The position numbers were made by a program, and so were the translations under genes. The notes beneath the pieces were generated by a model, which was not told where the DNA came from, did no database searches, and saw only the letters and a program-made list of their open reading frames with translations. Shown piece by piece: positions 10,481-19,683 of a stretch of 34,788 nucleotides of DNA. The first letter of the stretch is position 1. Each line of letters opens with the position of its first letter. Source of the DNA: Sandaracinus sp. Its GTDB lineage: Bacteria > Myxococcota_A > Polyangia > Polyangiales > Houyiibacteriaceae. The stretch is taken from positions 1-34,788 of the forward strand of contig PABA01000109.1 in the NCBI GenBank assembly GCA_002699025.1. The letters run 5' to 3'.

Positions 10481-10942
10481 TCAGGAGGCCGCGGGAGCGG
10501 CCTCCTGGCGGTAGACCGGGACCCAGCCGCTCTGGTCCTGGAAGAGGCGCACGCAGCGGATGGTCTTCGTCTCCGTGAGCTCGAAGCGGTGGTAGCGCTT
10601 CGCGGGGACGACGATCAGATCGCCCTCCTCGACCTTCACGCGCATCCAGCGATCGTCGCGGCTCCGGATGTCGAAGATGCCCTCGCCCTCGAGCACGAAG
10701 CGGACCTCGTCCTCCTCGTGCAGGTGCTCGTCGTCGAACTTCGCGCAGATGGCGTCGAGGTTCGGCGTCTCCGGGCGGAGCTCGACCTGGTCCTGGTGGA
10801 TGTAGCCGCGCTCGTCCTTGAGCGTGTCCATGGTCGGCTGGTAGCCGGCCGGGTCGGTCGGGAGCTGGTCGTTGAGGATGCCCTCCGCGAGGAGCGTCTC
10901 GCGGGGGATCTCGGTGCCGTCGTCGATCCAGGTGGCCTTCAT
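10481..10942 (-). CDS. mtnD: Acireductone dioxygenase
   Basis: Cupin enzyme of 153 residues, acting late in methionine salvage: it oxidises the acireductone made from methylthioribulose-1-phosphate to 4-methylthio-2-oxobutanoate and formate (Fe form) or to an off-pathway product (Ni form). The metal ligands of the family are all present: His73 and His75 in EHLHEEDEVRF, Glu79, and His118 in KRYHRFEL. It follows mtnB after 40 bp on the same strand, and GGAGGA lies 8 nt before its ATG, so it is probably co-transcribed with mtnB. The enolase-phosphatase step (mtnC) that should lie between the two reactions is not in this window. The end of the gene forms a hairpin with a perfect 10-bp stem. Confidence 0.95.
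   Translation of the reverse strand: MKATWIDDGTEIPRETLLAEGILNDQLPTDPAGYQPTMDTLKDERGYIHQDQVELRPETPNLDAICAKFDDEHLHEEDEVRFVLEGEGIFDIRSRDDRWMRVKVEEGDLIVVPAKRYHRFELTETKTIRCVRLFQDQSGWVPVYRQEAAPAAS
10483..10506. terminator. Hairpin 4 of the cluster, overlapping the mtnD 3' end
   Basis: AGGAGGCCGC, loop GGGA, GCGGCCTCCT: a perfect 10-bp stem formed by the last mtnD codons and the first base of its stop codon complement. On the minus strand it lies inside the coding end; on the plus strand it is the last of four hairpins met by readthrough from PLD. Confidence 0.55.
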
Positions 10943-10982: not shown

Positions 10983-11648
10983 TCACTCGGCGGCCGCGGC
11001 GCGCTCGGGCGCGGCGGCCGGGTCGAGGCCGAGCTGCTTCATCTTCACGGCGGCCTCGAAGAGGTAGTCGTAGCACTCGGCCTGGGTCTTCGCCTCGGCC
11101 CAGCTGCGGCCCCAGACGTAGACGCCGTGGCGCTCCACGAGCACGGCCTGCGTCTTCGGGTGGGCCTCGATGGCGGCGGTGAGGCTCTCCGTGAGCTCGC
11201 ACTCGCGCGCCGTGTTGCGGATGATCGGGACGCGCAGCTCGTCGTGGTACCCGTGGCCGCGGATGCCCTTCATCATCTCGAGGTGCGTCACGCGGAAGTC
11301 GCCCTCGAAGGCGAGGGTCGCGAGGAGCGCGTTCACCGAGTGGCTGTGGAGCACGGCGCCGGCCCCGCGGAGCCGGTAGGCGGCCAGGAAGAGGGGAGCG
11401 CACTCGCTGAGCTTGGCGCCCTCGGCGGGGGCCTTCAGGACCTCGCCCTCGAGGTCGAGCTCGAAGAGGTCCGCGGGCTGGATGCGCTCCTTCTGGACGC
11501 CGCTCGGCGCCATGACGATGCGGTCGCCGGCGCGGATGCTGATGCCGCCACCGGTGCCCGAGACCCAGCCCTGACCGTAGAAGAGCCGGCAGAGCTCGCA
11601 GATGCGCTCCCGGGCCTCGTCGGGCGTGATGTCGAAGGCGGTGCTCAT
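10983..11648 (-). CDS. mtnB: Methylthioribulose-1-phosphate dehydratase
   Basis: Class II aldolase-fold zinc enzyme of 221 residues that dehydrates 5-methylthioribulose-1-phosphate in methionine salvage. Zinc ligands are visible as HSH (101-103) and His174 in [10 protein letters not shown]. Glu124 in THLEMMKGI matches the catalytic acid of the family (HLEMIKGI in the human homologue APIP). SGTGGGIS (30-37) is the phosphate-binding stretch near the N-terminus. The ATG at 11648 follows GAGGAG and gives the family length. The frame stays open upstream through the 26-bp repeat array, but that stretch is repetitive and no homologue I know has it, so I treat it as leader. It is followed by mtnD, 40 bp on. 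The last 15 residues are Ala-rich and probably disordered. Confidence 0.94.
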
Positions 11649-11657
11649 GGAGGACTC

Positions 11658-11785
11658 CTCGGGGACGCCGCGCGTCGCCGTCTCTCGGGGGACGCCCCGC
11701 GTCCCATCTCTCGGGGGACGCCCCGCGCCCCATCTCTCGGGGGACGCCCCGCGTCCCATCTCTCGGGGGACGCCATGCGCCCCAT
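11658..11785 (-). repeat. 26-bp tandem repeat array in the mtnB leader
   Basis: Four complete 26-bp units start at 11682, 11708, 11734 and 11760 on the plus strand, after a 24-bp degenerate unit from 11658. In the sense of mtnB each unit reads GAGAGATGGGACGCGGGGCG and then TCCCCC. It contains GGGACG-loop-CGTCCC, a 6-bp hairpin; alternate units have GGGGCG and pair less well. Each unit also holds an ATG. The array ends 9 nt before the mtnB start codon. With the putative -10 box at 11801-11806, the whole array would be transcribed. Confidence 0.85.
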
Positions 11786-11800
11786 CCATCGCAGTCCGCA

Positions 11801-11806
11801 CTCTTA
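11801..11806 (-). promoter_or_regulatory. Putative -10 box for the mtnBD transcript
   Basis: TAAGAG on the minus strand, upstream of the 26-bp repeats. If used, the leader would be about 145 nt and would carry the hairpin array. No strong -35 box is visible. Confidence 0.25.
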
Positions 11807-11855
11807 GCGCCGCCGTGTCCCACGGCAAGAGCCGAACGCATCCGCCCGCGCAGAT

Positions 11856-11954
11856 GGCGGACGCGGAAAGCGGACGGCGGAAAGCGGACGGCGGAAAGCG
11901 GACGGCGGAAAGCGGACGGCGGAAAGCGGACGGCGGAAAGCGGACGGCGGAAAG
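11856..11954 (-). repeat. 14-bp tandem array downstream of the MBL-fold gene
   Basis: Six perfect copies of CGGACGGCGGAAAG run head to tail from 11871 to 11954, preceded by a degenerate copy from 11856. They are followed by two copies of a GCAGCGCAGCGGA-type 15-mer up to the gene stop. In the sense of the gene that ends at 11990 the unit is CTTTCCGCCGTCCG, the B module of the intergenic family. Fourteen is not a multiple of three and no ORF here has coding character. This and the 26-bp array fill most of the 341-bp gap. Confidence 0.9.
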
Positions 11955-11989
11955 CAGCGCAGCGGAGAGCAGCGCAGCGGAACCGCGCG

Positions 11990-12778
11990 TCAGCCGAGGC
12001 CGAGCGTGAGCTGCCGCGCCTCGCGCCCCTCGAGGACCATCGGCCTCTCCTGATGCGCCACCTCGAGCTGCACGTTCCGCCCCCGCAGCGCCGCGCCCGC
12101 CGCGCGCCGCGCCCGCCGCGGATCGTTCGTCTTCTTCGAGAGGTGCATCAGGACCACCCGGTCGAGCGGCGCCGCCTTCAGGGCCCCGAGGAACGTCGCG
12201 CACTGCGCGTTGGCCAGGTGCCCGCGCGGCCCGCCGATGCGCTCGCGGATGAACGCCGGGTACGGCGCCCAGGGGAGGAGCTCGCGGCAGTGGTTCGCCT
12301 CGAGCAGGAGCGTCCGGCAGTCGCGCAGGTGCCGCGCCAACGCCCGCGGCGTCTCCCCGAGATCGGTCACGAGCCCCACGCAGTCGGCCGCGTCCCGCAG
12401 CACCAGGGCCACCTGCGGCGCGTCGTGCGGCACCGGCTGCGCATGCACCTCGAGGGCCCCGATGCGCACCCGCCCGCCGCGCGCGTAGGGCCGGGTTCGC
12501 GTCTCTTCGGGGAGCGTCACCTGCCGCGCGGTCGCCGGCGTGAGGTAGACGGGCGCGTCGAAGGCCCGCGCCGCACGCCCGGCGTGGGCCACGTGGTCGC
12601 CGTGGTGGTGCGTGAGGACGATCGCGTCCACGCGCCCGAGCGCCTCGCCCGTCGCCTCCTCGTAGCGCCGCCGCACGCGCCGCACCGAGAGGCCCGCGTC
12701 GACGAGCACGCGGGTGCCGCCGCTCTCGAAGATCGTGGCGTTCCCTTCGCTCCCGCTCCCGACGACGACCGTCCGCAC
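11990..12778 (-). CDS. Metallo-beta-lactamase-fold hydrolase (WalJ/PhnP-like)
   Basis: Hydrolase of 262 residues. The start [11 protein letters not shown] (8-18) and VLVDAGLS (25-32) resemble the YycJ/WalJ and PhnP group of metallo-beta-lactamase proteins. The metal-binding signature HHHGDH (57-62) fits HxHxDH. Members of this group are single-strand nucleases or phosphodiesterases; which applies here cannot be seen. The GTG at 12778 is chosen because the domain begins immediately after it and because TATGCA ends 6 nt upstream; the longer ATG starts add a stretch with poor codon pattern that would overlap the hemH promoter. It diverges from hemH. Its stop is followed at once by the 14-bp repeat array. 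Confidence 0.88.
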
Positions 12779-18762: not shown

Positions 18763-19683
18763 CTACTTCTCCGGGGGCTCGCTCGGGCGGTCCTCGCCGG
18801 GGCCCTTGGCGCGGCCGAAGACCTTCGAGCCGGGCGGGACGCTCTCGGTCAGCCAGACGTTGCCGCCGATCACGCTGCCCTTCCCGATCACCGTGTCGCC
18901 CCCGAGGATCGTCGCGCCCGCGTACACGGTCACGTCGTCCTCGAGGGTCGGGTGGCGCTTCACCCACGGACCGCGCCGCGGCACGGAGAGCGCGCCGAGC
19001 GTGACCCCCTGGTAGAGCTTCACGTTCTGCCCGATCACCGCGCTCTCGCCGATCACCACGCCCGTGCCGTGGTCGATGAAGAAGCTCTCGCCGATGGTCG
19101 CGCCCGGGTGGATGTCGATGCCCGTCTTGCCGTGCGCGTACTCGGTGAAGATGCGCGGGATCATCGGCACGCGCGCCTTCCGGATCAGGTGCGCCAGCCG
19201 GTAGGCGGTGATCGCCGTCACGGACGGGTAGCTGAAGACGATCTCCTCGATGCTCTCGGCGGCCGGGTCCCCCTCGAAGGCGGCCTTCAGATCCGTGTTC
19301 AGCACCCGGCGGAGCTCGGGGATCTGCCGGAAGAGGCCGATCACGATGTCCTCGCCGCTCCCCGGCTCGGGGCAGTTCTCGCAGCGCCCGTACCAGTTCT
19401 GGTAGGTCAGCGCGCGCTCGATCTGGTCGACCAGCAGGTCGTGCGCCCGGTAGAGGTGCTCGGCGACGGCGTGCCGGAGGTTGTCCCGGTTGAGCGCCCG
19501 GGTCGCGTAGAAGCCCATGAAGAGCACCGGCTCGAGCTCGCGCAGGGCCTCGATGGTCTTGCGCTTGTTCGGGAGCGCCGCGCTCTCGAGGTTGTTGATG
19601 GGCTGGTCCGCGTCGTAGCTGCCGGCGATGGCGTCGATCGCGTCCTCGAGCTCGCGGTACTGCTTGGGCTGCTGGGAGACCAT
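18763..19683 (-). CDS. cysE: Serine O-acetyltransferase (EpsC type)
   Basis: Makes O-acetyl-L-serine from serine and acetyl-CoA, the first step of cysteine synthesis; 306 residues. A helical N-terminal domain of about 180 residues is followed by the left-handed beta-helix with hexapeptide repeats (187-285). TEYAHGKTGIDIHPGATIG (180-198) and FFIDHGTGVVIGE (201-213) carry Asp190 and His205, spaced 15 as in the E. coli catalytic pair. The long N-terminal part and SYPSVTAITAYR are typical of the EpsC branch. A CENC pair (101-104) is an extra feature. The polar tail after residue 288 replaces the usual inhibitor-sensing end, so feedback control is unclear. ATG at 19683; a TAGGCT box ends 16 nt upstream. 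The next step, cysM, lies 520 bp away on the other strand. Confidence 0.93.
   Translation of the reverse strand: MVSQQPKQYRELEDAIDAIAGSYDADQPINNLESAALPNKRKTIEALRELEPVLFMGFYATRALNRDNLRHAVAEHLYRAHDLLVDQIERALTYQNWYGRCENCPEPGSGEDIVIGLFRQIPELRRVLNTDLKAAFEGDPAAESIEEIVFSYPSVTAITAYRLAHLIRKARVPMIPRIFTEYAHGKTGIDIHPGATIGESFFIDHGTGVVIGESAVIGQNVKLYQGVTLGALSVPRRGPWVKRHPTLEDDVTVYAGATILGGDTVIGKGSVIGGNVWLTESVPPGSKVFGRAKGPGEDRPSEPPEK

Follow-up and report, generated by a model that had tools for sequence, protein, structure and literature searches.

Organization of the mtnB-mtnD locus

The window, that is, the whole stretch of 34,788 nucleotides that was analysed (contig PABA01000109.1 of Sandaracinus sp., from a genome assembly of 9.24 Mb in 238 contigs), carries on its minus strand two genes of the methionine salvage pathway and, ahead of the first of them, a tandem repeat array and the elements expected for its expression:

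10481-10942, minus strand, mtnD-like acireductone dioxygenase of the ARD family (PF03079, E 5e-36)
10983-11648, minus strand, mtnB, methylthioribulose-1-phosphate dehydratase (TIGR03328, E 1e-63; start set by codon usage and orthologue N-termini)
11655-11660, minus strand, Shine-Dalgarno (SD) sequence GAGGAG, located 6 nt upstream of the mtnB ATG (read from the sequence; anti-SD duplex, -8.4 kcal/mol)
11661-11786, minus strand, 26-bp tandem array of 4.8 copies (TRF and unit alignment)
11801-11828, minus strand, probable promoter TTGCCG-N16-TAAGAG with the -10 box at 11801-11806 (box and spacing match those of related myxobacteria)

The gene upstream of the array, on the same strand, encodes a metallo-beta-lactamase-fold protein. 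MTAP and MtnA, further enzymes of salvage, are encoded on other contigs, and no match to the enolase-phosphatase MtnC (TIGR01691) was found in the whole draft genome; the pathway may operate with another enzyme in place of MtnC, or mtnC may be missing from the draft.

A first-pass annotation had placed the array in the leader of mtnB-mtnD, with mtnB starting at 11648. This assignment is borne out by the domain matches of the two proteins, by the codon-usage gene caller, which sets the mtnB start at 11648, and by orthologue alignments, which begin at approximately residue 1-11 of the corresponding form of MtnB. The anti-SD pairing of this start is also the best among the leader ATGs, the values for the upstream ones ranging from -3.0 to -6.0 kcal/mol. 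The mtnB reading frame is open across the array and an upstream ATG at 11759 is in frame with it, so that MtnB might begin at 11759 or 11789 and carry an N-terminal extension encoded by the repeats. However, codon usage, the position at which homology begins and the location of the strongest SD sequence all indicate the shorter form, and a 26-nt period would cause a frameshift at every unit, whereas the arrays found inside genes in a 1.17-Mb sample of the genome have a period divisible by 3 in 42 of 42 cases. A coding function of the array is thus unlikely, and an MtnB protein extended in this way is very improbable.

Anatomy of the array

TRF describes an array of period 26, with 92% match and a score of 201, spanning 11661-11786, the end of which lies 12 nt upstream of the mtnB ATG. 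The 25-nt unit pattern, with up to three mismatches allowed, is matched three times versus none in 100 shuffles. The tandem repeat reported ahead of mtnB is real, and it is far beyond chance relative to shuffled sequence. With near-identical units of 26 bp arranged head to tail it has the form of a minisatellite, the term being defined for tandem repeats with units of more than 10 nt (PMC3899988).

In the mRNA sense unit 1 is GATGGGGCGCATGGCGTCCCCCGAGA, units 2 and 4 are GATGGGACGCGGGGCGTCCCCCGAGA, unit 3 is GATGGGGCGCGGGGCGTCCCCCGAGA and the diverged unit 5 is GACGGCGACGCGCGGCGTCCCCGAG, with GAGTCCTCC between unit 5 and the mtnB ATG. The initial reading, according to which every unit contains GGGACG/CGTCCC and an ATG, is correct only in part. 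The GGGACG/CGTCCC pair is exact in units 2 and 4, but the unit alignment shows GGGGCG in place of GGGACG in units 1 and 3, giving a G-U pair in RNA, and GCGACG in unit 5, giving a C-C mismatch; similarly, an in-register ATG is found in four of the five units, but unit 5 has ACG. Each 26-nt copy entails a change of frame, and the unit ATGs do fall in all three frames, as had been stated. The A-to-G difference of units 1 and 3 preserves pairing at the RNA level, which weighs against a near-neutral reading of the array, at one position only.

In units 2 and 4 the DNA reads GGGACGC-CCC-GCGTCCC, a perfect inverted repeat, and a dimeric regulator could be imagined to bind each 17-bp inverted repeat just downstream of the promoter. 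However, the symmetry is broken at the DNA level in units 1, 3 and 5, the exact arm pair with a gap of 2-5 nt occurs at just two other sites in the 9.2-Mb genome, and the inverted repeat is missing from the orthologue leaders, so that a repeated DNA operator is very unlikely.

A second array, consisting of 7.1 copies of GCGGACGGCGGAAA with 98% match, is present at 11857-11955 of the window, between the upstream gene and the probable mtnB promoter.

Probable promoter and extent of the leader

The proposal that TAAGAG is a -10 box gained comparative support from mtnB orthologues of related myxobacteria, and it is now regarded as likely. The pattern TTGC-N2-N16-TA is found 14-42 nt ahead of the mtnB ATG in six of nine related leaders, versus 0.03 expected from shuffles, and a box of this form arises in 2.2% of the shuffles of the 341-nt intergenic stretch in the window, both values being optimistic because the pattern was picked post hoc, after inspection of the sequences. 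Further matches to the pattern come from genomes already used, or from near-identical ones, and do not constitute an independent test. In the genome under study TTGC-N18-TA precedes only five of 560 sampled genes, so that it is not a general feature of the genome. A scan for consensus sigma-70 promoters at a strict threshold found none at the leader, and the promoter is a likely one as called by comparison alone.

The TTGCCG-N16-TAAGAG element of the window is 152 nt from the mtnB ATG. Subtraction of the 126-nt array leaves 26 nt, a value inside the 14-42 nt range of the relatives, from which it follows that the array most likely expanded within an ordinary short leader. With the probable promoter just upstream, transcription probably runs through the repeats, giving a leader of approximately 146 nt in which no intrinsic terminator or attenuator was found.

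Predicted folding of the leader and effect of copy number

The probable leader, together with 27 nt of coding sequence, has a calculated folding energy of -86.2 kcal/mol versus -85.4 +/- 4.6 kcal/mol for dinucleotide shuffles (z, -0.18), 86 of 200 shuffles being as stable; thus, it does not show the fold beyond that of shuffled sequence by which a structured RNA is recognized. The intra-unit hairpin (loop of 3, -11.6 kcal/mol) and the inter-unit hairpin (loop of 9, -11.4 kcal/mol) are of nearly equal stability, and the folding ensemble is a mixture of the two, with intra-unit pair probabilities of only 0.13-0.55 in the whole-leader fold. The stable series of hairpins, one in each unit, that had been envisaged is therefore not what is predicted. 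The hairpins of units 1-4 have energies of -11 to -11.6 kcal/mol, and the stability of the unit is matched or beaten in 17% of unit shuffles. A perfect 7-bp stem is found in 3.2% of unit shuffles and in just one other among 31 arrays of period 18-50, and both values weigh against a near-neutral reading. The energy required to open the SD-start region is 11.0-12.5 kcal/mol in models with 0-8 copies and 12.8 kcal/mol in the native leader. With a predicted cost that is flat across this range, the model offers no copy-number route to translation, and the idea that copy number tunes start accessibility found no support in silico.

These calculations bear directly on the hypothesis of a copy-number-tuned leader RNA, in which a row of hairpins and the frame-changing upstream ATGs would set mtnB translation, with slippage as the source of heritable variation. 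The probable promoter upstream of the array, the energies of the unit hairpins and the presence of upstream ATGs in three frames are in its favour; with the ATG at 11759 in the mtnB frame, the frames opened at 11785, 11776 and 11707, all with weak SD matches, run to a TGA that shares nucleotides with the mtnB ATG (ATGA). However, the whole-leader fold within the range of shuffles, the competition between intra- and inter-unit hairpins, the unchanged start accessibility, the weaker anti-SD pairing of the upstream ATGs and the lack of conservation of the array (see below) all argue against such a mechanism, which is regarded as unlikely. It is most improbable that the leader mutates fast, each gain or loss of 26 nt shifting the frame of the upstream ATGs and the hairpin register and heritably tuning methionine salvage. 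Were mtnB tuned by copy number, a housekeeping salvage pathway would be subject to variation driven by slippage, which would be unusual.

Distribution of the array in relatives and of similar arrays in the genome

The comparison covered 48 other mtnB leaders, scanned by TRF, with some genomes present twice in two collections; the relatives, the nearest named ones of which are Myxococcota/Sandaracinaceae assemblies, were represented by one genome per species, none of them congeneric. A homologous array was found in none of the 48 leaders, where repeats reach a maximum of 2.4 copies, so that the conservation or covariation expected of a structured cis-regulatory RNA is not seen among the orthologue leaders. 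No further copy of the unit is present elsewhere in its own genome, and the 182 further genomes searched from the order gave only seven weak matches (24-66 nt, E 1e-4 to 1e-3), on which grounds a dispersed repeat family was rejected. The literature searched yielded no publication that describes tandem repeats in the leader of mtnB.

The genome contains many arrays of this kind. Comparable arrays were defined by a period of 15-80, at least 2.9 copies and at least 80% match, and they were counted in a 1.17-Mb sample made of 60 stretches and the window; the gene calls came from an in-house script based on codon usage. The sample contains 64 comparable intergenic arrays, among which that of the mtnB leader ranks 25th by score. 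If the sample is representative, the genome would harbour approximately 400-500 of them, a figure that is rough because contig ends are over-represented. Fifteen distinct arrays are found at most 60 nt ahead of a predicted start; the nearest gene boundary is a start in 21 cases versus a stop in 29, and starts are not favoured. The unit of one other array (L123:326-560) is palindromic, and more strongly so than that of the mtnB leader.

Separately, the palindromic word GTCCGCAGGAC occurs 63 times in nine of the 61 stretches versus 1.8 expected, its arrays being located on other contigs of the same genome (L081, L113, L120, L123, L126, L128 and L132). It resembles a dispersed motif that forms arrays.

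Interpretation and comparison with known systems

The most probable reading is that of a lineage-specific minisatellite, which arose inside a short mtnB leader, is probably transcribed and contributes little or nothing specific to regulation. In this myxobacterial genome, rich both in GC and in similar arrays, replication slippage or unequal exchange would probably have enlarged a formerly ordinary leader, expansion downstream of the old promoter being the simplest history. Translation of mtnB would then proceed from its own ATG (11648), served by its own GAGGAG sequence on the 3' side of the repeats that probably form part of the leader. The GC-rich array in the mtnB 5' leader is probably near neutral, and a regulatory reading is not supported. 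As it stands, the array matters little, adding another minisatellite to a myxobacterial genome already rich in repeats; it does recommend caution, in that a leader array bearing hairpins needs genome-wide and orthologue controls before being given a regulatory reading.

With bacterial minisatellites the array shares the 26-bp unit, the head-to-tail near-identical copies, the absence from relatives and the presence of many others in the genome, whereas the location in a probable 5' leader and the self-complementary unit set it apart from them. In Moraxella uspA2, AGAT repeats in the 5' UTR were found to make expression dependent on copy number (Attia and Hansen 2006, as cited in PMC4679880). 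As described there, they too are arranged in tandem ahead of one gene, in its leader, and provide a precedent for a tuned leader, but their unit is of 4 nt and the effect was measured, whereas the mtnB array, with its unit of 26 nt, is known from sequence. By this analogy, an effect of the mtnB array would be possible in principle, as would copy-number tuning of mtnB, for which no positive evidence emerged. The TAACTGA heptamer of Beggiatoaceae also occurs as direct repeats between genes, immediately ahead of start codons (PMC4679880), but it precedes many genes, whereas the mtnB unit is confined to one locus. The genome yielded no match to CsrA, and binding of the hairpins in the manner of CsrA was rejected on this basis.

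The position in the leader of a methionine salvage gene recalls SAM riboswitches. However, no Rfam family matched the leader, either at the gathering threshold over the window or up to E 1 over 11600-12000, and SAM-I (RF00162) was not found in the genome. The earlier remark that no known SAM riboswitch pattern is visible is therefore supported, and a riboswitch reading was set aside. Elsewhere in the window, at 19091-19167, Rfam reported an archaeal L4 leader (RF03135) that scores 34.9 bits where the cut-off is 34.5; this match to GC-rich sequence is probably due to chance.
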